In this document: one piece after another, positions 313 to 10,646 of the stretch
How the letters are laid out: every line of letters begins with the position of its first letter
Numbering within the stretch: the stretch's first letter is position 1
DNA from: Planctomycetaceae bacterium
GTDB taxonomy: Bacteria > Planctomycetota > Planctomycetia > Pirellulales > Thermoguttaceae
Direction: 5' to 3'
Assembly (NCBI GenBank): GCA_031259095.1
Contig: JAIRLW010000551.1
Span: 1-10,646 of the forward strand
Length of the DNA stretch: 10,646 bases
The notes under the pieces: generated by a model
Database searches by the model: none
What the model saw: only the letters and a program-made list of their open reading frames with translations
What the model was told of the DNA's origin: nothing
Program-made: the position numbers and the translations under genes

Positions 313-365
313 TTTCTATCGTTGTCCTTTGAACGGTAACAAATTCCCTTTTTTATGTTCTTTGC

Positions 366-419
366 CCCGCTAGGGACGACATGTTATTAACCGTCGTATT
401 AAGTGTCGTCCCTAGCGGG
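366..419. repeat. 15-bp inverted repeat, gtcccgctagggac-type palindrome
   Basis: 'cccgctagggacgac' (366-380) is perfectly complementary to 'gtcgtccctagcggg' (405-419), with a 24-nt loop. Each arm also holds a smaller 'gtccc…gggac' palindrome. It sits 54 bp after the reductase stop and could work as a transcript-end hairpin, but no T-run follows. The right arm closely resembles the hairpin 'gtccctgcgggac' at 4848-4860, which suggests a REP-like dispersed family. Confidence 0.75.
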
Positions 420-469
420 ACTAAGACAAAATAACCATCACGGAAATTCCGTTGATATATTACTTATTT

Positions 470-517
470 TTTAAAACCTTTCGTAAATATTCGTATTTTT
501 TGTGGTGAACATAAAAA
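470..517 (+). repeat. Dispersed 48-bp 'ttcgtg' repeat, copy 1
   Basis: This segment matches 3481-3528 at 44 of 48 positions in the same orientation. The core is a roughly 10-bp-period run (ttcgtaaata / ttcgtatttt / ttgtggtgaa) flanked by 'tttaaaacc' and 'cataaaaa'. It is non-coding. I recall similar 'accacgaa…cacgaa' strings in intergenic DNA of several phyla, but their function is unknown. Confidence 0.8.
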
Positions 518-615
518 TAAGGCAAAATAGAACAATTTGAGAAAATCAGCGTCCTCTGCGGACTTCTCACTCGGTATGTTCGAAAGTTAAGAAAATAGAC
601 AATGACGATTCCAGA

Positions 616-643
616 TTGTTTTTTTCTTGATGACTGTTATACT
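616..643 (+). promoter_or_regulatory. Candidate extended -10 promoter for the anti-sigma-like gene
   Basis: TATACT at 638-643 is preceded by TG at 635-636 with one base between, giving an extended -10 element. A weak -35 (TTGTTT, 616-621) lies 16 bp upstream. Transcription would start near 650, leaving a leader of about 85 nt before the ATG at 735. This is a motif match only. Confidence 0.4.
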
Positions 644-711
644 AAGTGCGTAAGTTGCAGCAAATGTTTTCCTCAAATAAATCTATCATCCCTTAAAACA
701 AGGGTTGATTC

Positions 712-725
712 AATACAATTGTATT
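712..725. promoter_or_regulatory. 14-bp perfect palindrome, possible operator
   Basis: 'aatacaattgtatt' is a perfect palindrome that ends 9 bp before the chosen ATG at 735. It lies downstream of the candidate promoter, where a bound repressor or a small hairpin could affect expression or ribosome access. AT-rich palindromes of this length also occur by chance. Confidence 0.3.
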
Positions 726-734
726 AAGTTTTTC

Positions 735-1802
735 ATGTCTTCAGAACCCGATACCATTCAGGATATTTCTTCGGATGAAGCGATTTTGGTTGAATATCTT
801 GACGGCGAATTATCGTTGCAAAATCGGCGGATTGTTGAGAGTCGATTGGCGGCGGAACCGGAATTTCGGGAAACATTGACCCGATTAGAGGAAAGTTGGA
901 AACTTCTCGATTTATTGGAACGCGACGACACAGATAAAAAACTCGTAGAATCAACTCTTGAAACAGTTGTTTTTTCGGCGGAACAATCTGTTGCGGAAAT
1001 CCAAAAGCAAACAAAACGCCGGTCTTTTGTGAAAATCGTTTTGACCGGTGTTTTACTGTTCCTGATTTTTGGTTTCGCTTTTCATCTCGGCGAAGGTTTT
1101 GCGCCGGATAAAAATTACTGGCTTCGGATTGCGTCGCCGATTATTGATCGATTGGATATGTATTTGACCGTTATTGACGACGACCCGGAATTACTTCGGC
1201 TTCTAGCAGAACGGCGACTTTTTCTGCCAACGTTGCCTGACGGCGCGAAACCAATTAATCCCAATGAATATCGTCCTTCGTCTTCTGTTCGGATACTAGA
1301 TTCGTTAACGGTTTATCATCCGTCGTTTGCGGAATTAAAGCGTCGGGTAAAACGCATCGAAAATCTCGACAAGTCGCTTTATAATCGTTTCTACAACAAC
1401 TGTAAAAAGTTTCAGGAACTTTCGTGGGATAAAAAACAAAAACTCAAGGAATTGCATGAGAATATCGAACGGTCGCCGCGCCGTAACGAATTATTTCAAA
1501 CGCTTCAAAATTATTATAACTGGCGTAAATCGCTTCAATCGTATGAAAAAACAGATTTACGCCGTCCACTTCCGGCTGCCGAGCGGGTTGAACAAATTGC
1601 GGCGCTGAAAAGCCGTTTGGACGCAAACCAACCGGAAACTGTTACTGTACCGCTTTTATCCGAAATATATAAATCAAACGCCGATCTCGCCAAAACATTA
1701 GACCGTCTTTCTATGCAGGAAAAAGAAATCCTGCTTAATACCACGCCCGCACAAATAATCGGTATCTTATTGAAACAACTCGCTACAGAAGAAACAAAAT
1801 AA
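735..1802 (+). CDS. Membrane-anchored anti-sigma-factor-like protein
   Basis: 355 aa. It is probably a single-pass inner-membrane regulator that holds an ECF sigma factor through its cytosolic head. Residues 14-62 ('DEAILVEYLDGELS', 'RLAAEPEFRETLTRLEESWKLLDLLE') match the head I associate with planctomycetal anti-sigma factors; the zinc-binding His/Cys motif of ZAS proteins is absent. A positive patch (KQTKRR, 91-96) precedes one hydrophobic helix (98-118), followed by a charged, mostly helical domain of about 235 residues that I do not recognise and that should lie outside the membrane. ATG 735 is preferred over the upstream in-frame TTG at 705, because the head motif follows it at normal distance and the ten extra residues look unrelated. 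Neither start has a Shine-Dalgarno site. No sigma factor gene is adjacent in the window, which is unusual for this class. Role inferred from resemblance; the C-terminal domain is unassigned. Confidence 0.75.
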   Translation: MSSEPDTIQDISSDEAILVEYLDGELSLQNRRIVESRLAAEPEFRETLTRLEESWKLLDLLERDDTDKKLVESTLETVVFSAEQSVAEIQKQTKRRSFVKIVLTGVLLFLIFGFAFHLGEGFAPDKNYWLRIASPIIDRLDMYLTVIDDDPELLRLLAERRLFLPTLPDGAKPINPNEYRPSSSVRILDSLTVYHPSFAELKRRVKRIENLDKSLYNRFYNNCKKFQELSWDKKQKLKELHENIERSPRRNELFQTLQNYYNWRKSLQSYEKTDLRRPLPAAERVEQIAALKSRLDANQPETVTVPLLSEIYKSNADLAKTLDRLSMQEKEILLNTTPAQIIGILLKQLATEETK

Positions 1803-1840
1803 TCCGCAGATTACGCCGATTTTCGCAGATTATTTTGAGG
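1803..1840 (+). repeat. Dispersed 38-bp 'cgcagatta' repeat, copy 1
   Basis: The segment begins at the base after the TAA stop of the anti-sigma-like gene and is 37/38 identical to 3317-3354. Inside it are three degenerate units (cgcagatta, cgccgattt, cgcagatta) spaced 9-10 bp apart. A third, partial occurrence shares 17 identical bases (1796-1812 with 3544-3560), so the match reaches slightly into the coding end. Confidence 0.82.
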
Positions 1841-1891
1841 AATTCTAAAAATTCGTTTTTTAACCACAACATTTTATGAAAAATCAACATC

Positions 1892-1954
1892 ATTTGTCCC
1901 ATTAGTCCCTATTAAAAAGGGACTTTAGGGACAATAGAGACTAATGGGACAAAT
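1892..1954. repeat. 22-bp-arm inverted repeat between convergent genes
   Basis: 'atttgtcccattagtcccta' plus 'tt' (1892-1913) pairs with 1933-1954 with a single mismatch, around a 19-nt loop that itself carries 'agggac' steps. It lies about 90 bp after the anti-sigma-like stop and 92 bp beyond the transporter stop. It could protect or end transcripts from both sides, yet its 'gggac' composition resembles dispersed intergenic repeats. Confidence 0.8.
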
Positions 1955-2002
1955 AATCAATTAATTAATTGATTATTTAATTAATTAATTAAGATTTTTT
2001 TT
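1951..2002 (+). terminator. AT-only palindromes followed by T8, possible terminator
   Basis: A 28-bp perfect palindrome spans 1951-1978, overlapping the end of the preceding inverted repeat by four bases. A second pairing is possible between aattaattaatt at 1959-1970 and 1979-1990 (8-nt loop), followed by eight Ts at 1995-2002. That gives a terminator shape on the + strand for the upstream gene, but the stem has no G or C, so efficiency is doubtful. Confidence 0.4.
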
Positions 2003-2046
2003 GCAAATGATATTTTTAAAAATTCTTATTATTAACACTTTCGGAA

Positions 2047-2979
2047 TCAGTCAAGACCGGTACGTTTCAAAATGCCATAAGTCAGATAGCCAATCACAAT
2101 AAGCCCCAAAGCGAATAACGAATAAGAAATAGGCCAAGGAATGGGTTGGGTGAACGTTGTGTATTCCGACATGCCAAAAATACTCGCAATCACGTTCAGC
2201 GGAAGGAAGACAATCGATAAGACTGTTAATTGTTTCATTAACATGTTCAGGTTGTTACTGACCACCGACGCACGAGCGTCCATCATTCCCGCCATAATCA
2301 CCGAATAAATTTCCGCTTGTTTAAAACATTGGGTGTTATCGACATTCAGGTCTTCCAGCAACTCGTTGTGTTCCAACGTAAAACCAATCTTGCCGGAATA
2401 ACCCCGCAATTTGTCAATCAAAACGCCGTTGGTCGAAATCGCACTCAAATAATAGGTGAGACTTTGACTTAATTTGAACAAATGTAACAAATGTTTATTA
2501 CTCATGGTTGTTTCCAATTTCTTTTCCAATTCATCCACAATCATACTGATTGCCCGAATATGTCCGAGAAATTGTGAAATGGAGCGGGCAATCAGCCGAA
2601 GTAATAATTCGTGAAGTCCGCCGGTAATGTTGGAAACATCCTTGCCGCGATCAAAAAACGTAATGTCATCACTCATCACCGCAATAAGACGGTCTTTGAA
2701 AAGATAAAGACCCATTGATGAAACGCGGAATAAAAAATCGTCTCCCTCAGAATAATGACGCGGACGCTTGAAAATAATCGCAATATGCGTCGGCTCAAAC
2801 TCGACACGCGATAACTCGTCCGGGTCAAGCGCACTACTCAACGTGTGTTCGTCAAGATTCAATTCGCCAACAAGATAAAGCCGCTCCGTTTCATTCGGAG
2901 CAACAAATACCTGAATTTTTGAATTTTCATCATCCACCGGTTGAAGACGACCATCAATAATATCAAAATTTTTGCGCAC
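2047..2979 (-). CDS. CorA-family divalent-cation transporter with GMS signature
   Basis: 310 aa, the usual length for CorA-type Mg2+/Co2+ channels, which form pentamers in the inner membrane with a large cytosolic N-terminal domain. Residues 1-120 look like the alpha/beta domain, 120-250 the long stalk helices, and two C-terminal membrane helices lie at about 250-269 and 283-304. The first ends 'FLPLNVIASIFGMSEYT': the family's Gly-Met-Asn selectivity motif reads Gly-Met-Ser (269-271). I believe GMS relatives exist, but whether this one still favours Mg2+ is open. The start is GTG at 2979; no in-frame ATG lies upstream before a stop, and no Shine-Dalgarno is visible. The gene converges with the anti-sigma-like gene and is transcribed away from the VWA gene. 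Two 'ttaccccctt' repeats lie in its probable leader. Family sure, ion unproven. Confidence 0.9.
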   Translation of the reverse strand: MRKNFDIIDGRLQPVDDENSKIQVFVAPNETERLYLVGELNLDEHTLSSALDPDELSRVEFEPTHIAIIFKRPRHYSEGDDFLFRVSSMGLYLFKDRLIAVMSDDITFFDRGKDVSNITGGLHELLLRLIARSISQFLGHIRAISMIVDELEKKLETTMSNKHLLHLFKLSQSLTYYLSAISTNGVLIDKLRGYSGKIGFTLEHNELLEDLNVDNTQCFKQAEIYSVIMAGMMDARASVVSNNLNMLMKQLTVLSIVFLPLNVIASIFGMSEYTTFTQPIPWPISYSLFALGLIVIGYLTYGILKRTGLD

Positions 2980-2986
2980 TGGATTG

Positions 2987-3026
2987 AAGGGGGTAATTGA
3001 TTAACTCTTACTAACTAAGGGGGTAA
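2987..3026 (-). promoter_or_regulatory. Paired 10-bp direct repeats in the transporter leader
   Basis: 'aagggggtaa' occurs at 2987-2996 and again at 3017-3026, exactly 30 bp apart start to start (about three helical turns). On the transcribed strand they read ttaccccctt, between the candidate -10 box and the GTG start. Possible roles are a protein site bound on one face of the DNA, or C-rich leader RNA segments able to pair with G-rich RNA. Confidence 0.45.
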
Positions 3027-3052
3027 CTTTGACTCTACGTATGACCAAGTAA

Positions 3053-3058
3053 ATTATA
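3053..3058 (-). promoter_or_regulatory. Candidate -10 box for the CorA-type gene
   Basis: The minus strand reads a perfect TATAAT, 74 bp before the GTG start. No acceptable -35 lies at the normal distance (the position holds ACCGAA), so the site may be weak or activator-dependent. Confidence 0.35.
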
Positions 3059-3084
3059 CTTCTCACCCTTTACAATTCGGTTTT

Positions 3085-3119
3085 GTAGAGACGAGAGAGG
3101 CAATGCATTGCGTCTCTAC
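3085..3119. repeat. 'gtagagacg…cgtctctac' palindromic element with a 7-nt insertion
   Basis: The 9-bp arms at 3085-3093 and 3111-3119 are perfect. Between them lies 'agagagg' and then the perfect palindrome caatgcattg (3101-3110). Removing the seven bases would leave a 28-bp perfect palindrome. I recall arms of this type as abundant in cyanobacterial and other genomes, as dispersed non-coding elements. Confidence 0.75.
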
Positions 3120-3316
3120 GTCAATATCCAATGAATTTTATAACAATCAAAAAATAAAAAACGAAATTTCAAATCAAAAGGGTATAAAACGGAGGAAGCC
3201 ATAAAAACAAAATTTAGTATAACGTTGAATGAAAAAAAATCAACACAAGTTTTGATTTTATCCTTGAAAATTCCCGCAATACCGCTACAATGGAAAAAAT
3301 AAATGGAAAAAAATAG

Positions 3317-3354
3317 TCCGCAGATTACTCCGATTTTCGCAGATTATTTTGAGG
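3317..3354 (+). repeat. Dispersed 38-bp 'cgcagatta' repeat, copy 2
   Basis: It differs from 1803-1840 by one base (t for g in the second unit) and keeps the ~10-bp internal spacing and the 'attttgagg' tail. The flanks of the two copies differ, which defines the repeat ends. Confidence 0.82.
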
Positions 3355-3415
3355 GAGGTTATTATGAGATAAAAATAATAGTCATTATTCAGCGGAATTG
3401 TTCCTATTGATTTTT

Positions 3416-3446
3416 AACTACGAAATACACAAAAGGACACGAAAAT
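3416..3446 (-). repeat. Reverse-oriented 'acgaaa/acac' periodic repeat
   Basis: The units 'acgaaatac', 'acaaaagg' and 'acacgaaaat' are degenerate steps of about 9-10 bp. They are the reverse complement type of the 'ttcgtg' repeats at 470-517 and 3481-3528. With the latter, only 34 bp away, the segment forms a loose inverted pair. Confidence 0.55.
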
Positions 3447-3480
3447 GAGGTTTCTATTTTCTATTTTTTATTTTTCATTG

Positions 3481-3528
3481 TTTAAAACCTTTCGTGAATA
3501 TTCGTGTTTTTCGTGGTAAACATAAAAA
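3481..3528 (+). repeat. Dispersed 48-bp 'ttcgtg' repeat, copy 2
   Basis: Second copy of the repeat at 470-517, with four substitutions and no gaps. Its units read ttcgtgaata, ttcgtgtttt and tcgtggtaaa, closer to a regular 'ttcgtg' period than copy 1. Confidence 0.8.
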
Positions 3529-3609
3529 ACCGAACACTTGGATAAAATAATCCGCAGATTTCTCGGCGGTTAATTTTTGTATTTTTAATTCAAAACAATC
3601 TTGATAATC

Positions 3610-4791
3610 ATGAACGAAAACGAATTACAATCTGTTCCGGTACCAACAACAGTTCCGGTTCCGGGAAAGGTTCCGGTTCCAAGACAAACTCCTGTTTCGG
3701 AAACCGTTCCGGTTTCGCAGGAAAACTCTTCCGATTCAACAAAATTTGCTATCGGTATTGGGATTATTTGTCTTCTGTTGATTTTAGTATTACTTTTATT
3801 GTTATTACGGAACGCAGCTATGTCGCAGCAGGAAAACACGTCCGTTCAGCAAACGGCAGGCGAAACAACAACCGAGAATACCGATACCGGATTCGACAAT
3901 CAAGGTCAGGAAACAAATCAAAACAGTACAGAAAATAATAACAGTCAGCAGTCAACAGAAACAGCAACATCAACAGAAGGACAAAATCAAGAACAAGCAC
4001 AAAACAATGCAGAAACAAACGATTCCGATACAAAAATACAGGATGATGGTCATAAAAAATCCGCTGCAGCAAAACAATCTGAAGAAAAACCGCAAATCGA
4101 ATCGTCTGAAAACATTACGCAATCAGAAAAAACAACCGATGTTTCAACACAAAACAACGCCAATACTCCGTCATTTCAACCCCATTTGGAAAAACATTCG
4201 GAAAATGACGCCAACGGCTATTCGGACGGTTTTCATCAAGGCGACGCCACTGTTAACATTTTTAACACAACAGGAAAAGGTACACGATTTGTTTTTGTAT
4301 TTGATCATTCCGGCAGTATGGCAGGCAATCCGCTTGAAGCGGCGAAACGAGAATTAACACAATGTCTTACTTCATTAAGAGACCATCATCGATTTAATAT
4401 TATTTTTTATGATGATCAACAACTCATTTGGAAACCGGGTGATAAATTGATTTCCGCAGTGAAAAAAAATAAAAAAGACGCGGAACAATTTATTGCGGAC
4501 GTCAATCCCGGGGGGGGAACCGAACCGTTACCGCCGCTCTTAATGGCAATTGATTACAAGCCGGAGATCATTTTTTTTCTGACAGACGGGGATGCGACAG
4601 ACAGGGAATTTCAGCCAAATGGGGAATTGGCGCTTCATTTCGATAATATTTGTAAACAATGTAAGAAAATACGTATCAATGTCATCCAATTCGGTTCAAA
4701 CGGACGCCAATCGGCTCTTTTACAAAAATTAGCCCGAAGAACTCGCGGAGATTACGAATATATTGATGTAAAAAAATTTGACGCACTATAA
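3610..4791 (+). CDS. Single-pass membrane protein with VWA (MIDAS) domain
   Basis: 393 aa. Order: an N-terminal Val-Pro-rich hexad repeat (9-38), one membrane helix (about 46-67, 'IGIGIICLLLILVLLLLLL'), a low-complexity Gln/Asn/Thr/Glu/Ser linker (about 71-215) and a von Willebrand factor A domain (about 222-390). All metal-site loops are present: Asp232-x-Ser234-x-Ser236 ('FDHSGSM'), Thr304 ('GGGTEP') and Asp326 ('FLTDGD'). VWA domains bind protein partners through the chelated Mg2+. 'RFVFVFDHSGSM' is the form I associate with a planctomycetal family of unknown role. The polar linker should hold the domain away from the membrane. The side is uncertain, because few charges flank the helix. 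ATG 3610 is chosen over an in-frame TTG at 3601. No Shine-Dalgarno is visible. Eight Ts follow directly after the stop. A run of eight Gs (4510-4517) encodes part of the glycine loop, and the frame is intact across it. Domain sure, partner unknown. Confidence 0.88.
   Translation: MNENELQSVPVPTTVPVPGKVPVPRQTPVSETVPVSQENSSDSTKFAIGIGIICLLLILVLLLLLLRNAAMSQQENTSVQQTAGETTTENTDTGFDNQGQETNQNSTENNNSQQSTETATSTEGQNQEQAQNNAETNDSDTKIQDDGHKKSAAAKQSEEKPQIESSENITQSEKTTDVSTQNNANTPSFQPHLEKHSENDANGYSDGFHQGDATVNIFNTTGKGTRFVFVFDHSGSMAGNPLEAAKRELTQCLTSLRDHHRFNIIFYDDQQLIWKPGDKLISAVKKNKKDAEQFIADVNPGGGTEPLPPLLMAIDYKPEIIFFLTDGDATDREFQPNGELALHFDNICKQCKKIRINVIQFGSNGRQSALLQKLARRTRGDYEYIDVKKFDAL
3634..3723 (+). repeat. 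In-frame 18-bp tandem repeat encoding Val-Pro hexads
   Basis: There are five consecutive six-residue units in the VWA protein: VPVPTT, VPVPGK, VPVPRQ, TPVSET and VPVSQE. At DNA level they are about 18 bp each with a 'gttccggttcc' core, and they decay toward the last two. Slippage could change the unit number between strains. Confidence 0.85.
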
Positions 4792-4809
4792 TTTTTTTTG
4801 CACAACTAT

Positions 4810-4860
4810 CCGGCGGCGATGCGCTCCACCGCCGGTTATGCACTCTCGTCCCTGCGGGAC
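4810..4860. repeat. Double-hairpin intergenic element
   Basis: The first hairpin pairs ccggcgg (4810-4816) with ccgccgg (4829-4835) around a 12-nt loop. The second is gtccctgcgggac (4848-4860), a 5-bp stem with a 3-nt loop. It begins 19 bp after the VWA stop. The first stem is the most GC-rich hairpin near that stop and could help end the transcript, but the T-run (4792-4799) lies before it, not after. The second is the same type as the arms at 366-419. Confidence 0.6.
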
Positions 4861-4880
4861 AGGAACACAACCAACGTTGT

Positions 4881-4955
4881 CTGAAAGGCAAGATTTTAAG
4901 TTTTTAACTATTAAGATTAACGATTAACGAATACCCTCAAAATCCTGCCTTTCAG
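4881..4955. terminator. 17-bp-arm inverted repeat between convergent genes
   Basis: 'ctgaaaggcaagatttt' (4881-4897) pairs with 4939-4955 with one mismatch, around a 41-nt AT-rich loop that contains 'gattaacgattaacga'. It lies between the stops of the VWA gene and the HEAT lipoprotein gene, where a bidirectional terminator would be expected. No clean T-run adjoins either arm, so a dispersed repeat is an equal alternative. Confidence 0.5.
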
Positions 4956-5032
4956 GAAAAATAAAAATAGACTGAATTGTTACTAATTTTTAGCGATTCC
5001 CATGATATTAGTGTCAACATGCCCTAGAAACG

Positions 5033-7963
5033 TTAGGGATTGTTTTCCGTAACATTCAAATGATTTGCCCATTTTTTCCATCGAGCGGTTTTTTGTTTTG
5101 TGATGGAAGTTTCTTTGGAATACGATTGACCGAAATCAAGAATTTCAATGTCTTCTCCGGCTAATTTGGGCAGTCCGATTAATGCCGCCTGACGTACACT
5201 ACTGTTGCGGTCATCAAGAAAATAAATCAAAATCGGCACAAAAATAGGATCGCCAAGTTCCGACGTCTTTTGAACAACCTCAACTCTAATTCGAGCGTCG
5301 GACGAAAGAGCCAAACGTCGAAACGTTTCTTCGCCGGAAGGATCGCCTAGCCGATGTAACGCCATTGCTGTTTCAAGTTGAAGCCGGACGTCGCCTTGCA
5401 GTAATTTTGTTTCCAGTCTTTCAATAATTTCCGCACGTTCCTTTTCGCAATCGTTACGGTCAGATTTTTCGAAAATGGCAAGAATCGCGTTAAGGGCGTT
5501 TTGGAATACATGACGGTCGGGATCGTACAATAATTCAATCAGTTTCGGTAAATCATGGTTATTACCGGATTCCTGAAAAATCTCACACGCTAAACATCGA
5601 AGTTTCAACGATTCAGATCGGAGCAATGTTGTTGCCAATTGTTTTGCTAATTCCGAATCGGTTTTTCTAATCGTTTCGAGAAGTGAGGCAAGAACGGAGG
5701 AATCGGTTTGACGGCGGGCTTGATCGGCAATTCGCCGAAGAGTTAATTTGTCCATATTGCGAACAGAAAACCATCGGACAAGTTCTGAAGCGGCGTTACG
5801 TTGCTCGTTGAGGTCGTTAGATTTAAGTTGCACAATCCATTCAAAAACCGGATTCGTTTCGGCTAAAACAGAATCGAGTGATTCGGGAATTTTACGCCGT
5901 TCAAATTCGTACAGATAATTCAACGCCGGCAACAACTGATCTCCAAAACTCGCCAATCTGTTATAAATTTCTTGACGCTCTTCCGGTAAACGGTTTGCCG
6001 TTTGCCAATCGTTCAGGCAATACCGGATTTCGTTAAGAATCAACTCATTCGGCGGAGTCTGTTTTGATTGAGAAAAATCGTTACTTTGCGGATTTTGGGA
6101 ACGTAATTCGGCAGAACCAACCACTTCGTGAAAACGGCGAACTAACTTTTCGTATTGCTCTGTCTGATTTTTCGGCAAGTCCAACGGATTCAATTCTTTA
6201 ACCGCAATTCCATGTTTTGCGAGAATATCAAGAGCCTGCTGACGAGTTGAGGCGTGTTGACTTTTCGCAGCGTCCAGTAGAAGACGACCGCTTTCTTCAA
6301 GAGACCAATCCGTCAACGCATTTAATGTTGCCTGTCGGACTTTTTCGTAATAATCGTTTATCATTCGTCTTGCCAACGTCGCCGTTTGCGGAGAACATCG
6401 GTTGGCAAACGCTTTCACCGCTTCAAACCGAACATTGAAGTCCGAATCATTGACCATTGGAAGCACGTCTTCAAAACACCCCAATTTTCGTAGCGATTCT
6501 ACTGCTTTTGCCCGATTTGTTGCAACGGAATCGTTAAGTTTTTGTTTCATTATCGGAATGGCTTCCTGACAACCTGCTTCCGCTAACGCGGTCATTGCGG
6601 CATGGCGTACCATCATTTCGCCGTTCAAATCACGTTGGAGCAACGCCCAGATTTCAGGTTCTTTCCAAAGTCCCAATGTTCGGATCATTTCTGTACGGAT
6701 TATCGGATTGGTTTCGCGCCGGACGTATTCGAGATAGGCTTCCGGTAACCGAAATTCCCAACCGCCGAGCGTTGTTCCGTTTCGTTTTTTCGGAGGAGAA
6801 TGCTGCCGCCACAGTTTAGCGGTTTGGCTTCGTGTTTCGAAATTTCGTGCGGCGAGCGGTTCCAGAAAACACGGATGTTCCCAAGGTTCCAGCCGTTCCG
6901 CCAACGCCGTGAGCAATTCCAACCACAGCGCCGGAATTCCCGGTTCAATATTTCGGACGGAAAGACCGGTTTGTTCGTTTTTTGTTTCAATTTCACGTTC
7001 TTTGAATTGTTCCAACAATGGAATCAGAACATCGGGCGATACGGTTGGCAATCGTCCCAATGTTTCGGCGGCGGCGCAACGTAATTCGTTTTTCAACGAT
7101 TTATTGTTGACAATTTCAATCAATTCCTTTTCCGCAACAGGATCACCGTCCCGACCCATTAAAATCACCGCGTTTGCACGTAGAACACGGTAAGCGGTTC
7201 CCTGATATTTTTTATCGTGCAAAAATATTTCAGGAGTGCCGCGAAGTTCGGACGGAATGCGAAGCAGTTGTTCCATTTCCCGATGAAACCAACGCCACGT
7301 CGATGGTAAACCGGAAGAATAATCGTAATTGAAATTTTTCTGCTTTTGAATTTCCTTATTGGACATATTCAATTGATTGATTTCTTGCTGACGCTTTCGA
7401 TCTGCCGCGTTTTGATTCGGAAACGGGTCTTGCATTCCGTTTTCTTTCCAATAATCCAATACAATATTTTTCGTCCAAATATCTTTGGCGAGAATCCGTT
7501 CCTGCTCTTCATCGCTAACCATTTCCACTTCCGACTCCGTTTCAGTAATCAATTCCATTTCCGTTTCTGAATCTGTTTCGGAAATCAATTCTGTTTCCGC
7601 AACTGTTTCCGTTTCGGCAATTGGTTTTGTTTCCGTAACTGATTCTATTTCATCCGATAACAGGGATTCGGAAGAATCTAACGGTTGCTGTTTATTTTTC
7701 GTAACTATCTGAGAAGACGAAACCGTTTGAGCAAGATGTTCCACAAACGGATCACGCGGTGATTCATTGGAAACAGCCGCTAAAAACGAATCTATAACTG
7801 TTTCGGTTTTGCCGGATGTTTCCGCTGAAGGAGAAAAAACCGTTGCTTCCTGTAGAGGTAAACGTTCCATCGGCACGGTCAATGAGCAACCGGTAAAAAT
7901 TAAACCGGCGCAAATTAACAACATCTCTGTTATCAGAACAATAAATTTTTTCACGACATCCAT
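5033..7963 (-). CDS. Large HEAT-repeat lipoprotein
   Basis: 976 aa. Residues 5-25 form a lipoprotein signal with a lipobox-like 'LIFTGC'; Cys26 would be lipidated, placing the protein on a membrane facing the periplasm. Glu13 within the hydrophobic stretch is unusual, and a shorter start at Met14 is possible. A Glu/Thr/Ser-rich spacer follows (108-146). Helical HEAT-type repeats fill about 255-320, 415-590 and 715-935: 'VRHAAMTALAEAG', 'VRFEAVKAFANR', 'VRQATLNALTDW' and 'VRQAALIGLPKLAG' carry the repeat's V-R-x-x-A core. A break of about 120 residues (590-715) divides the array. The end 'ARWKKWANHL' resembles the C-termini of other planctomycetal HEAT proteins. HEAT superhelices are protein-binding scaffolds, and no enzymatic residues were seen. 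ATG 7963 has no Shine-Dalgarno. Same strand as the two genes to its right, but 138 bp from the nearer. Fold sure, partner unknown. Confidence 0.87.
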   Translation of the reverse strand: MDVVKKFIVLITEMLLICAGLIFTGCSLTVPMERLPLQEATVFSPSAETSGKTETVIDSFLAAVSNESPRDPFVEHLAQTVSSSQIVTKNKQQPLDSSESLLSDEIESVTETKPIAETETVAETELISETDSETEMELITETESEVEMVSDEEQERILAKDIWTKNIVLDYWKENGMQDPFPNQNAADRKRQQEINQLNMSNKEIQKQKNFNYDYSSGLPSTWRWFHREMEQLLRIPSELRGTPEIFLHDKKYQGTAYRVLRANAVILMGRDGDPVAEKELIEIVNNKSLKNELRCAAAETLGRLPTVSPDVLIPLLEQFKEREIETKNEQTGLSVRNIEPGIPALWLELLTALAERLEPWEHPCFLEPLAARNFETRSQTAKLWRQHSPPKKRNGTTLGGWEFRLPEAYLEYVRRETNPIIRTEMIRTLGLWKEPEIWALLQRDLNGEMMVRHAAMTALAEAGCQEAIPIMKQKLNDSVATNRAKAVESLRKLGCFEDVLPMVNDSDFNVRFEAVKAFANRCSPQTATLARRMINDYYEKVRQATLNALTDWSLEESGRLLLDAAKSQHASTRQQALDILAKHGIAVKELNPLDLPKNQTEQYEKLVRRFHEVVGSAELRSQNPQSNDFSQSKQTPPNELILNEIRYCLNDWQTANRLPEERQEIYNRLASFGDQLLPALNYLYEFERRKIPESLDSVLAETNPVFEWIVQLKSNDLNEQRNAASELVRWFSVRNMDKLTLRRIADQARRQTDSSVLASLLETIRKTDSELAKQLATTLLRSESLKLRCLACEIFQESGNNHDLPKLIELLYDPDRHVFQNALNAILAIFEKSDRNDCEKERAEIIERLETKLLQGDVRLQLETAMALHRLGDPSGEETFRRLALSSDARIRVEVVQKTSELGDPIFVPILIYFLDDRNSSVRQAALIGLPKLAGEDIEILDFGQSYSKETSITKQKTARWKKWANHLNVTENNP
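7526..7642 (-). repeat. Coding Glu-Thr-rich low-complexity tract in the HEAT lipoprotein
   Basis: Residues 108-146 are built from 'AETETV', 'AETELI', 'SETDSE' and 'ITETES' style units, with DNA units around 'gtttccg'. It is a flexible, strongly acidic spacer between the lipid anchor and the helical domain, comparable in role to the polar linker of the VWA protein. Confidence 0.75.
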
Positions 7964-8020
7964 TTCGCTAAATAGTCCGAATCAAATAGTTTTTATCGGA
8001 ACACAAAAAAGTTAAGCATT

Positions 8021-8043
8021 GACCGAAATCAATTTCAATCGAC
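8021..8043. repeat. Diverged copy of the 8780-8801 palindrome core
   Basis: 'gaccgaaatcaatttcaatc' plus 'gac' matches the centre of the nested palindrome at 8750-8849 with two substitutions over 22 bases. It lies in the 138-bp gap left of the nuclease-like gene, so related sequences sit on both sides of that gene. Confidence 0.45.
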
Positions 8044-8101
8044 ATTAAGTAACGCCTATCGTAACCGTCTATTTTAATACAACAAAATAGACCATGAGTT
8101 G

Positions 8102-8716
8102 TTAAAATTCTCTTGGTTTGAAGTTTTTTGGAACGTCAAATTTCATGGTATCGCCGGATTGGACAAGCACGTAGAAACCCGCGTTGACGGCAACCGTCTT
8201 AATTTTTTCAGGGAAAACTGCGCCGGCAATCGCGCCGATGATTATTTTGGGCGGTTCATTGAATTCTTGACGGTTTTGTTTTAGTTTTTCGATTCGGTCG
8301 ATGTGATTTTTGACATCTTCTTCGTCAGGTTTTGCCTTTATTTCAACAACCGCAATTGTGGTCGTGTTTTCGAGATAGGCGTCGATTTCAGCAATGAGTT
8401 GATTCTGGCGATTGATCACTTTGAAATTTCCTTCAAATTCTTTATGAAAGTGATAACCGAGTTCATTGAAACAGGCAACGACGGCAGGAAAAACCATGTG
8501 TTCTGTCACTTCGCCAAAACGATTGCCCAACTTGCCCATTTGTTTGGAAAGTTCTTTGAAAGATTTTTCAGTTTCTTTATGTTGTTCGGAAATTTCTTGT
8601 ATTGCTTTGTTGGTGTCTTTTACGAAGTCTTGAATCGTTTGTTGAGTTGTTTGGTGTGCTTCGCGGATGGATTGCATGACCTGTTCATAGGTCAAGGAGA
8701 TTGTTGGTGTTGACAT
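8102..8716 (-). CDS. Coiled-coil plus PD-(D/E)XK nuclease-like protein (DUF3782-type)
   Basis: 204 aa, cytosolic. Residues 10-65 are a charged, heptad-like helix ('REAHQTTQQTIQDF', 'EQHKETEKSFKEL'), likely an oligomerising coiled coil. The rest matches a widespread uncharacterised family: 'GNRFGEVTEHMV' (64-75) gives the first-helix Glu69, 'IAEIDAYLE' (108-116) gives Asp112, and 'AVVEIKAKP' (122-130) gives the E-x-K pair Glu125/Lys127. Together they form the metal-binding core of PD-(D/E)XK nucleases. 'YVLVQSGDTMKF' and 'FKPREF' at the C-terminus are typical of the family as I recall it. Whether it cuts nucleic acid is not established. The gene stands alone, between a HEAT lipoprotein and a secreted HEAT-like protein, with related palindromic sequences on both sides, which could mean it arrived by transfer. 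ATG 8716 has no Shine-Dalgarno. No methylase or other partner gene of a restriction system is adjacent. Confidence 0.82.
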   Translation of the reverse strand: MSTPTISLTYEQVMQSIREAHQTTQQTIQDFVKDTNKAIQEISEQHKETEKSFKELSKQMGKLGNRFGEVTEHMVFPAVVACFNELGYHFHKEFEGNFKVINRQNQLIAEIDAYLENTTTIAVVEIKAKPDEEDVKNHIDRIEKLKQNRQEFNEPPKIIIGAIAGAVFPEKIKTVAVNAGFYVLVQSGDTMKFDVPKNFKPREF

Positions 8717-8749
8717 CGTTTTTGATTTTGGTTAAAGGTTTTTGTGTTT

Positions 8750-8849
8750 AGGTAACTTCTAAAAACTTCGACTGAAATCGACTGAAATCAATTTCAGTCG
8801 ATTTCTGTCGAAGTTGGTCGATCAAAAAACGAGTTTTTAGAAGTTACCT
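8750..8849. mobile_element. MITE-like nested palindrome with 18-bp terminal inverted repeats
   Basis: Outer arms 8750-8767 and 8832-8849 (aggtaacttctaaaaact and its complement) are perfect over 18 bp. Inside, 8766-8788 pairs with 8791-8813 with one mismatch over 23 bp and only two central bases. An unpaired 18-nt stretch lies on the right side. The whole 100 bp can fold into one long hairpin. It carries no coding sequence and no clear target-site duplication. It sits 33 bp upstream of the nuclease-like start, where it could affect transcription. Confidence 0.55.
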
Positions 8850-8860
8850 TTATTGCTTTG

Positions 8861-8886
8861 AACACAGAAATCACGGAAAGACTGAG
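8861..8886 (-). repeat. Weak 'acacagaaa/tcacggaaa' periodic repeat
   Basis: 'aacacagaaatcacggaaag' and the following bases show two 10-bp units of the same general pattern as 3416-3446 (a-c-a-c-g/a-g/a-a-a-a). It is probably a degenerate member of that family, directly beside the MITE-like element. Confidence 0.4.
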
Positions 8887-8997
8887 ATTGTTTTGTTTGG
8901 AAAATTAGGTTGAAAATGAGGTTTTAAAAAATGAGTTCGAATCCTTGTGAAAATTCCACTAAATAATGACCATATAATCCGAAATAATCCGTAATTT

Positions 8998-10458
8998 TCA
9001 AACTCCGCTTCCGGCAATAATCGCACTGAGTTCGTCGCTCATTTTTTGAAGCGCATCACGAATGGCAGTGAAATTCACTTTGAGTTGTTGCTCTTTTGGT
9101 TTTGTTGTTGTTCTACCGCTGGAGCCGGAATACGGTTCACTCATTGAATCCGTCATGCCGGAGGTTAAACGTTGTCTTGTTATTTCTTCCGGCAGCCCTT
9201 CATCAAGAACTTTGAAGAGCGGCGTAATTAATTTGACGACAGAGTTTATTTTTGCCGCAACCGGATCATCACCGGGAAGCATTGGAAGAATTCCGGCGAT
9301 GGCAGTTCCGGTCAGGCGTGCGCCGCGCATTCCATGCGTTACATTGAGAATGTTCGATTTGACACTCTGCACCGCACCGGTCACTTCAAGTTGTTGTTCC
9401 GGAGTGAGCATAGCAAACTCCGGTTCCAAAGCAGTTGATGAAATACCGGTTATATCCACCGAAGGGATTCCTCCTTTGGCAACCAACGCTTTATTCCGAA
9501 GTTGTGTCACCATTTGGAGTTGTGAATCTGCGGTCGCTTTCATTAGCGTAATCAACGACGTTCCGAGTTGTTGATACTGCTGATTATTCAGCGTCGTATC
9601 GGAATCGGCAAAATTCAGTTCGCCGAATATTTTTGCCGCATAGGTTCGCATTTCGATTGTTTCCTCATTATTTTCGATCACTTCCGACAAGACTTTGATT
9701 ACTTGCCCATTGGTTCCGACAGATTTCAACGCTCCTAGTCCGTCCAAAGCGTGAGAACGAAACCAATCGGTCATTTCCTGATCTTCTTTATTTCCATCCT
9801 GTTTCGGTTTGCCTGATTGAATGATTTCGATGAACAGGTTGGGAATGGTCGTATTTTTCAAGCCTTCATCAGTGATTCCGATTTCGGCAAACCGAACAAT
9901 TCCAATGAGTGCGCCGAGTTGAATGAATTTCGGATTTTCTGTTTTCTGATATTCCCCGAGAAGATAGGGCAATGCCTGAACATAAGGAGTCGGCGGATTT
10001 CCGCGGCTAGCGGGTTCACGTTGCGTCAATTGCCCGATGGCGAGAATGGCATTATAACGTGAAGACGGAGTGGCGTTGTTATCTGCCGCGATTTTTTTAA
10101 GGGAATCGAACGATTTAGCGAGTAAATATTCCCGTGCATTTCCGGCGGCGTCGCGCAAGTCTTGAGACAAAAATTCTCTGACGAATTGCTGAACCTGACC
10201 GGTATTTTCAGGACGAGTCCATCGCGCAAAGTAATATTTATCGAAAAAAGTGTCCAAACCGGCACGGTCGGCATCAACACTGCCCGACTTGAACGCGGTG
10301 AAAATCGCGGTTTTCCGTCCTGCTTGTGTTTCGTCAACTTCCCAACCGGTTGCCAACGCCATTTGTGCCGACGCGATCCCCGAAAAAACAAGTTGAACCA
10401 AAACCACAACGAAAAACAACATAACCAATTTTATCTGAAAACGAACCCTGTAAAACAT
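8998..10458 (-). CDS. Secreted HEAT-like protein, planctomycete type
   Basis: 486 aa. A long cleavable signal peptide spans residues 1-31 (basic start, hydrophobic 9-27), with a signal-peptidase site at 'ASA|Q'. The mature protein is mostly helical: 'SRYNAILAIGQL' (133-144), 'IQLGALIGIVRFA' (179-191), 'RSHALDGLGAL' (234-244) and 'MRTYAAKIFGEL' (270-281) read as HEAT/ARM-type helices. 'FFDKYYFARWTRPENTGQVQQF' lies at 71-92; I recall a similar segment in uncharacterised Pirellulales proteins. The C-terminal third (about 345-440) is less repeat-like, and a Ser/Gly/Thr-rich stretch (438-453) precedes a final helix. It is probably periplasmic and protein-binding; no catalytic motif is seen. ATG 10458 is supported by AAAGGA eight bases upstream and a TTGACA promoter, both unusual for this window and suggesting stronger expression. 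Similar in fold to the lipoprotein at 5033-7963, but not an obvious duplicate. Confidence 0.83.
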   Translation of the reverse strand: MFYRVRFQIKLVMLFFVVVLVQLVFSGIASAQMALATGWEVDETQAGRKTAIFTAFKSGSVDADRAGLDTFFDKYYFARWTRPENTGQVQQFVREFLSQDLRDAAGNAREYLLAKSFDSLKKIAADNNATPSSRYNAILAIGQLTQREPASRGNPPTPYVQALPYLLGEYQKTENPKFIQLGALIGIVRFAEIGITDEGLKNTTIPNLFIEIIQSGKPKQDGNKEDQEMTDWFRSHALDGLGALKSVGTNGQVIKVLSEVIENNEETIEMRTYAAKIFGELNFADSDTTLNNQQYQQLGTSLITLMKATADSQLQMVTQLRNKALVAKGGIPSVDITGISSTALEPEFAMLTPEQQLEVTGAVQSVKSNILNVTHGMRGARLTGTAIAGILPMLPGDDPVAAKINSVVKLITPLFKVLDEGLPEEITRQRLTSGMTDSMSEPYSGSSGRTTTKPKEQQLKVNFTAIRDALQKMSDELSAIIAGSGV

Positions 10459-10466
10459 CGTTAAAT

Positions 10467-10472
10467 TCCTTT
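10467..10472 (-). promoter_or_regulatory. Ribosome binding site of the secreted HEAT-like gene
   Basis: AAAGGA on the minus strand lies eight bases before the ATG at 10458. It is the only well-placed Shine-Dalgarno sequence in front of any start in the window, and it fixes the start choice. Confidence 0.65.
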
Positions 10473-10521
10473 CGATTCAAAATAACCATGAAAGTTGTCC
10501 TAAAAAACAGAATAACATAAT

Positions 10522-10551
10522 AGGATACAAATTTTATAAATACTTTGTCAA
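10522..10551 (-). promoter_or_regulatory. Sigma-70-type promoter of the secreted HEAT-like gene
   Basis: A perfect -35 TTGACA (10546-10551) and a -10 TATCCT (10522-10527, four of six consensus bases) are separated by 18 bp. Transcription would start near 10515, giving a leader of about 57 nt that contains the AAAGGA site. Confidence 0.55.
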
Positions 10552-10605
10552 GAGAATACCTGAAATTTTTCGGATTATTTTGGAATTTTTGGGGTAGTGA
10601 TTTTA

Positions 10606-10646
10606 AGGTAGGCGACCTTTAGGTGGGCAACCTTTCGCCGAAAGGT
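10606..10646. repeat. 15-bp tandem, self-complementary repeat running off the right edge
   Basis: 'aggtaggcgaccttt' (10606-10620) and 'aggtgggcaaccttt' (10621-10635) are adjacent units at 13/15 identity; both are imperfect palindromes (aggt…acct). The last bases, from 10630, form 'acctttcgccgaaaggt', a palindrome with one central base. The array is cut by the window end, so its full length is unknown. Confidence 0.65.

Follow-up and report, generated by a model that had tools for sequence, protein, structure and literature searches.

The systems closest to the repeats treated here, as given in the excerpts of the papers cited, are miniature inverted-repeat transposable elements (MITEs) and other intergenic palindromes. 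MITEAba12 occurs in at most 22 copies per genome, with a constant length of 111-114 bp and duplications in 36 of 90 copies (PMC6382973). Enterobacterial repetitive intergenic consensus (ERIC) sequences reach up to 711 copies in Photorhabdus luminescens, and QMITE2 of Coxiella burnetii, with 78 copies and direct repeats of 7-9 bp, is a MITE containing a GTAG repetitive palindrome (both PMC10969869). BrickBuilt of Porphyromonas gingivalis is made of 23-bp units and has 19 copies (PMC4596501). Among insertion sequence (IS) families, IS66 is marked by ends starting with GTAA (the quoted start is GTAAGCG) and by 8-bp repeats (PMC11946415); it is absent from the main text of the MITE review PMC10969869, and in the open-licence literature no paper was found on the families described below or on IS66-derived MITEs of Planctomycetes. 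Here we analyse a window of 10,646 nt that is the entire contig C155 (JAIRLW010000551.1) of a Planctomycetaceae genome (GCA_031259095.1, hereafter G000), a 3.84-Mb metagenome assembly of 653 contigs with 78% completeness and 5.1% contamination. The window is typical of a genome rich in MITEs of the IS5 and IS66 types, palindromes resembling repetitive extragenic palindromes (REPs), and remains of such elements. We put at roughly 80% the probability that the repeats between its genes are for the most part non-autonomous mobile elements and the debris of such elements, with one family, MITE-1, moved by IS5-family transposases and another, MITE-2, by IS66-family transposases.

The density of repeats was measured against a sample of the same genome consisting of 60 contigs picked by number; eight of the 60, e.g. 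C3 (L003), were mostly N and were left out, leaving 52 contigs and 277,962 bp. At E≤0.01, 54 of the 84 intergenic 50-bp tiles of the window matched this sample, compared with 4 of 84 after dinucleotide shuffling, and coding tiles matched in 19 of 340 cases (13 of 340 when shuffled). For sample and window together (288,608 bp, 22.3% intergenic according to a simple open reading frame caller), 45.6% of the intergenic bases have a match (E≤1e-5) elsewhere in intergenic DNA, and for 25.9% the depth is at least five, the shuffled values being 0.1% and 0.0%, respectively; non-overlapping coding pieces taken as a control are covered to 0.3%. That is, the repeats are overall neither single-copy nor present at the level of shuffled sequence, although the inverted repeat at 4881-4955 (+) has no second copy in the sample. 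Multi-copy repeats are present in six of the seven gaps of the window. Counted at E≤1e-5, they cover 275 of 331 bases in gap 374-704, 239 of 244 in gap 1803-2046, 340 of 621 in gap 2980-3600, 67 of 241 in gap 4792-5032, 253 of 281 in gap 8717-8997 and 59 of 188 in gap 10459-10646, and none of the 138 bases in gap 7964-8101. The initial annotation of this DNA had reported a palindrome or a run with a period of about 10 bp in nearly every gap; the repeat-packed gaps are real and the observation was largely right, but it was confirmed only in part, as gap 7964-8101 holds no repeat and the periodicity turned out to be a mixture, with 4-mer identity in repeat DNA peaking at lags 7, 9, 10 and 14 (such peaks are missing from repeat-free gaps) and a unit of 9 bp in the GGGAC repeats. 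Likewise, several of the seven or more families proposed are pieces of one composite element. De novo family finding agreed with the seed-based families, with several over-extended consensus sequences.

The best-defined element, at 8751-8848 (+), is a MITE, as it has inverted ends, a fixed-length duplication, many copies, and ends in common with an autonomous transposon. It is 98 bp long, has no coding capacity, and consists of an imperfect hairpin body (an inverted repeat was found at 8764-8815) between 16-bp terminal inverted repeats, GGTAACTTCTAAAAAC and GTTTTTAGAAGTTACC, that show no mismatch. The 4-bp target duplication, read from the sequence, is TTTA on the left (8747-8750) and on the right (8849-8852; no strand is assigned to either). 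A search with this element gave at least 40 places at 112 bits or more (40 were scored of 447 first-look candidates), and the end motif occurs 304 times in G000, compared with once for the reversed control. Among 50 distinct MITE-1 copies, an exact 4-bp duplication was present at 26 (shuffled mean 2.59, maximum 7 in 500) and a 5-bp duplication at none; for this count and the corresponding one for MITE-2 below, copies were deduplicated by sequence and came from the loci then fetched, not from a random draw. The comparison set comprised 21 genomes of this planctomycete genus, whose source may be the termite gut; genomes are numbered G and fetched loci L. DNA matches to MITE-1 were found in 15 of these 21 genomes and in one of 16 further genomes of the family, but in none of 23 from elsewhere in the order, and a large part of these matches cover only the terminal 25-40 bp. 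A 20-base end pattern searched in 84,980 species genomes gave 51 stretches, 48 of them in two Planctomycetaceae Ncb351 metagenome-assembled genomes (MAGs; bin65 and bin97) and the remaining three in one Bacteroidia MAG, one Flavobacteriaceae MAG and one Candidatus Haliotispira prima. The latter (CP123443.1; L163 7710-7888), far from planctomycetes, carries a 179-bp pair of MITE-1-like ends.

In two of 30 DDE_Tnp_1 loci of congeners, L192 and L178, MITE-1 ends are paired around IS5-family frames of 361 and 377 codons, respectively, and the L192 element is flanked by the target duplication TTAA. The L192 transposase has matches in 15 of the 21 genus genomes; the 12 matches in G000 are all partial, some with stops. 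After one of these fragments (L072; start of contig C475, 84% identical) a MITE-1 end follows, consistent with an insertion sequence that is present in several copies and was fragmented in the assembly. The proposed mover of MITE-1 is an IS5-family transposase acting in trans, which would recognise the 16-bp ends (GRNAACTTCTAAAAAC) and produce the A+T-rich duplication of 4 bp.

The second family is defined by one end motif that terminates many otherwise dissimilar repeats. The idea that this motif is merely a common 3′ end of unrelated bodies was ruled out by pairs in inverted orientation, that is, it is a terminal inverted repeat. Such pairs (GTAATATATCAGYGGAAT..ATTCCRCTGATATATTAC) span 112-525 bp. 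An exact 8-bp duplication flanks 9 of 46 MITE-2 copies (shuffled mean 0.39, maximum 3), and duplications of 7 or 9 bp flank none of the 46. Exact ends number 286 in G000, 410 in G014, 395 in G020, 617 in G018, 552 in G005 and 247 in G004, compared with 0-3 in each of the other fifteen genus genomes, the reversed control giving none in any genome. The end GTAATATATCAGYGGAAT begins with GTAA, as do IS66 ends in the excerpt of PMC11946415; the fuller start GTAAGCG quoted there is not present. The IS66 transposase domain (PF03050) occurs in 11 of the 21 genus genomes, and at 6 of 30 PF03050 loci of congeners a MITE-2 end (at most four mismatches) lies in the expected place, 149-152 bp beyond the domain end in L231, L237, L242, L244 and L250, and 694 bp before the domain start in L236. 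L242 has both ends, spanning 1549 bp around a 400-codon frame; when read through its stops, it reaches 163.5 bits against NF033517, for which the cut-off is 180. In L239 there is an exact end whose orientation is not the one expected, and no MITE-2 end was recognised in place at the other PF03050 loci of the 30, many of which are cut by contig ends. The proposed mover of MITE-2 in trans is an IS66-family transposase, which would recognise the GTAATATATCAGYGGAAT ends and leave 8 bp. The window itself contains no intact MITE-2, only degenerate or solo ends: a solo right end ATTCCGTTGATATATTAC at 446-463 (+; one mismatch), for which no partner end was recognised; a degenerate left end GTCATTATTCAGCGGAAT at 3381-3398 (-; four mismatches); and a remnant with the body CTGAGATTGTTTTG.. 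at 8882-8970 (+), whose degenerate right end (8953-8970) has five mismatches.

We consider the mechanism proposed for these two families to be well supported. As the ends of MITE-1 and MITE-2 match full transposons of close relatives, much of the density is attributable to borrowed transposases rather than to a novel mechanism of the host. The initial annotation had suggested spread by a host-encoded or trans-acting mechanism; the trans-acting part is supported for these two families, given their inverted ends, fixed-length duplications and congener IS5 and IS66 genes with the same ends, but the host-encoded part is not, since the movers would be insertion-sequence transposases. Its statement that no transposase is present stands, for none of the seven window proteins that were scanned matched a transposase family. 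Ends lie in gaps in 34 of 36 cases for MITE-1 and 61 of 63 for MITE-2, and insertions would accumulate there because those in genes are presumably purged; some of the elements may still be mobile today.

A number of observations weigh against this reading. No intact IS5-family partner of MITE-1 was found in G000, only fragments, and PF03050 gave no match there, both searches covering a genome that is 78% complete; PF03050 was also not found in G004 and G020, both rich in MITE-2. Neither the IS5-type element of L178 nor the IS66-type element of L242 has an exact duplication. The copies used for counting duplications were drawn from more than one species, by best match or by pattern, and two of them, L126 and L135, share flanks and may represent one event. 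No exact empty site for the window MITE-1 was found in congeners, in which the gene order differs, the G016 gap being too diverged. Moreover, at least five repeat families of the window have no assigned mover.

Among the latter are the GGGAC hairpins, the GTAG-type palindromes, and the CGAAACACGAA and CGCAGATTA repeats; neither a duplication nor a partner was seen for the GGGAC, CGAAACACGAA and CGCAGATTA families. The TTCGTG / CGAAACACGAA repeat is present in two copies, at 458-517 (+) and 3469-3528 (+; opposite arm near 3418-3450), that are 87% identical, and the CGCAGATTA repeat has copies at 1793-1840 (+) and 3307-3354 (+) that are 94% identical, in agreement with the earlier statement that two families recur within 10.6 kb; in addition, an inverted CGCAGATTA copy at 531-564 (-) is 79% complementary to the 1793-1840/3307-3354 family. 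In several places CGAAACACGAA hairpins adjoin CGCAGATTA units. The GTCCC / GGGAC hairpin at 1889-1957 (+) is built of 9-bp units, and a weak MITE-1-like end (three mismatches) lies at 1837-1852. The pattern GGGAC(N4)GGGAC(N4)GGGAC has 274 matches in G000, 614 in G004, 294 in G017 and at most 33 in each of the 18 others, overlapping matches being included, and its reversed control gave 4 in G000, 1 in G006 and otherwise none. Since G017 combines 294 GGGAC arrays with no exact MITE-2 end, the GGGAC and MITE-2 bursts are independent.

A possible origin of the GGGAC family, to which we give somewhat less than even odds, is not a transposon but a minisatellite with 9-bp units, lengthened by slippage and inverted duplication and dispersed either through recombination or as a passenger. 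The arrays of exact GGGAC with variable N4, at 274 three-unit matches in G000 compared with four for the control, speak in favour of this, but their spread over many contigs with similar outer edges goes beyond slippage alone. As for passenger status, a loose search for MITE-1-like ends gave 81 pairs, of which 23 had a 4-bp duplication and three enclosed a GGGAC array, none of the three with an exact 4-bp duplication. The idea that GGGAC arrays are bounded by a third family of IS5-like ends was rejected, as the loose search mostly returned MITE-1 and its relatives.

The palindromes raise the question of a second class of mover. The palindrome GTAGAGACG..CGTCTCTAC at 3085-3119 (no strand assigned) is a short, repeated, GTAG-type palindrome with 22 sites in G000 and none for the reversed control; its GTAG pairs with CTAC at the other end, and an unpaired GTAG tag at one end is not present. 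GC-rich perfect palindromes were found in 26 of 47 MITE-2 bodies, compared with 0-7 in shuffled bodies, 8-19 in other intergenic pieces of equal length and 2-12 in coding pieces (20 draws per control), that is, palindromes are common in all gaps and commoner in MITE-2. They vary between MITE-2 bodies, and some belong to types that flank genes for REP-associated tyrosine transposases (RAYTs; Y1_Tnp) in congeners. In L265, for example, the RAYT gene has CGTAGGGCAACGCCCTACG on one side and a variant of it on the other; CGTAGGGCAACGCCCTACG is also found at a distance of 900 bp from the L269 RAYT gene and within the MITE-2 of L250. The RAYT gene of L270 is flanked on either side by CCGCAGGTC..GACCTGCGG, which occurs within L128, L159 and L167 as well, and the MITE-2 bodies of L025 and L018 contain the GTAGAGACG palindrome. 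The occurrence of GC-rich REP-like palindromes both inside and outside MITE-2 suggests two stacked layers of mobility, with RAYT as the putative mover of the palindromes. It is tempting to go further, in a proposal that we regard as tentative and on the doubtful side, and to view MITE-2 as a general vehicle in which one IS66-type end pair repeatedly picks up and spreads differing single-strand-mobile palindromes. A DDE transposase would then amplify RAYT products, and a few such two-layer systems could build about half of the intergenic DNA of the lineage, turning over between species.

The reverse emphasis, namely that most of the repeats are REP-type palindromes moved single-stranded by a Y1 (RAYT) transposase without target duplication, appears unlikely. 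The 22 GTAG-type palindromes of G000 would be in line with it, as would the presence of Y1_Tnp in 14 of the 21 genus genomes, with palindromes on both sides in L265 and L270, and the GTAG repeats known from Planctomycetes in the excerpt of PMC3733652. However, no Y1_Tnp was found in G000 (78% complete), MITE-1 and MITE-2 have fixed-length duplications and DDE-type ends, and the paired GTAG of the window palindrome leaves no tag; on the grounds of the missing Y1_Tnp match and the DDE-type duplications, RAYT was rejected as the general mover.

Retention of the hairpins for RNA or nucleoid functions, as terminators, for mRNA stability or for protein binding, is very unlikely. In its favour, in 48 co-directional gaps the half next to the stop codon was covered by repeats to a slightly greater extent than the half next to the start (0.564 vs 0.408, p = 0.024), a comparison bearing on the enrichment at gene 3′ ends for which the initial annotation had proposed a test, and the inner arms of MITE-1 (29 copies) pair better within a copy (10.9) than between copies (9.7), with none of 300 re-pairings reaching the within-copy value. 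Relatedness alone could also explain the latter. Against such functions, 3 of the 26 pairs of the MITE-1 fold (24 copies) show any double change, and for 16 GGGAC hairpins the own arm scored 17.9 vs 16.3 for other copies but was the best partner in none of the 16. Paired changes at N4, compared in a fixed register in 10 GGGAC hairpins, gave 1.6 vs 1.49. Rfam returned 12 matches at E values of 1 or less, every one of them to a microRNA family and far below its gathering score, and identity with an Rfam RNA family was rejected on these grounds. Moreover, the repeats number hundreds in some genomes of the genus and are absent from others. The earlier suggestion of retention for nucleoid or RNA functions was not borne out by these results.

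Finally, an apparent density produced by assembly artefact or by bin contamination (5.1%) is scarcely credible, for despite the fragmentation into 653 contigs and the location of 35 of the 61 intergenic MITE-2 ends in contig-edge gaps, hundreds of ends of these families are also present in assemblies of other genus members made independently, and repeat collapse lowers counts and does not raise them. The 35 ends are in gaps lacking a called gene at one flank, a sign that contigs tend to break at such repeats and that the copy numbers are probably too low. Non-autonomous elements dependent on IS5- and IS66-family transposases remain our preferred explanation.

Other features of the window are a palindrome at 359-426 (+) with arms CCCCGCTAGGGACGACA / TGTCGTCCCTAGCGGGA, which has one sample match and, like its counterpart in L009, is connected to a MITE-2 end, here the one at 446-463; CCGGCGG..CCGCCGG and CGTCCCTGCGGGAC palindromes at 4800-4870 (+; three sample matches); and the AGGTAGGCGACCTTT palindromic repeat at 10555-10646 (+), cut by the contig end and with ten sample matches. 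The motif AAAACCGAATTTTAAAGTG..GAGTATA (3130-3190) recurs before genes in 23 sample places (at most three mismatches); it may have a promoter-like or regulatory role instead of being mobile. The seven proteins scanned comprise the end of an aldo/keto reductase, a protein with a weak anti-sigma match, CorA, VWA, HEAT-repeat and DUF3782 proteins, and a protein of 486 amino acids that had no family match over the cut-off. The coding sequence of the HEAT protein contains 36-bp tandem repeats (7519-7645). In the region 7964-8997 of G000 the DUF3782 gene (8102-8716) lies between the 486-amino-acid gene and the HEAT gene, and in G016 the latter two are about 70 bp apart with neither a DUF3782 gene nor a MITE between them (loci L292 2977-3045 and L289 1-226 were compared). 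Behind the 486-amino-acid gene, G000 has MITE-1 and the remnant of a MITE-2, G005 has a MITE-2 end, G011 and G018 have repeats of other kinds, and G016 has about 70 bp in which no repeat was recognised; the next gene is the same only in G016 and G018. In G014 a different short gene follows, whose start looks by eye like what we take to be an Rpn/PD-(D/E)XK nuclease. This comparison shows turnover between species, not an exact empty site.

Taken together, this is a known kind of system that is unusually dense, and its mixed palindromic cargo under one end pair is the best lead. Gaps filled with structured repeats have become families with named transposase partners, so that the effect of non-autonomous elements on a bacterial chromosome becomes measurable, and the all-or-nothing pattern among the 21 genus genomes (six with 247-617 exact MITE-2 ends, fifteen with 0-3) provides a natural series on how a burst starts and stops. 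Compared with the known systems, in the excerpted accounts, the elements resemble the IS-derived MITEAba12 in being short and gene-free, with ends in common with a resident IS, fixed-length duplications in some copies and A+T-rich sites, but there are hundreds of ends here and MITE-2 bodies range from 112 to 525 bp (PMC6382973). Like ERIC, they are MITE-like intergenic hairpins; unlike ERIC, described as one family per genome, several families share gaps, two of them with identified transposase partners (PMC10969869). As in QMITE2, a palindrome lies inside a MITE, but here one end pair encloses many differing palindromes and the ends match IS66 genes (PMC10969869). With the GTAG/CGTC REPs and their RAYTs they share short palindromes near genes, some beside Y1 genes, in Planctomycetes, whereas the GTAG is paired in the window palindrome and no Y1 gene was found in G000 (PMC3733652). 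BrickBuilt is likewise an intergenic MITE with internal tandem units, but the units here are of 9-10 bp, in hairpin form and with hundreds of matches (PMC4596501). Candidatus Thiomargarita nelsonii is, like the present planctomycete, an uncultured bacterium with many MITEs; those differ in having 10-bp repeats and TATA ends, and no IS5 or IS66 link is described for them in the excerpt of PMC4853749.

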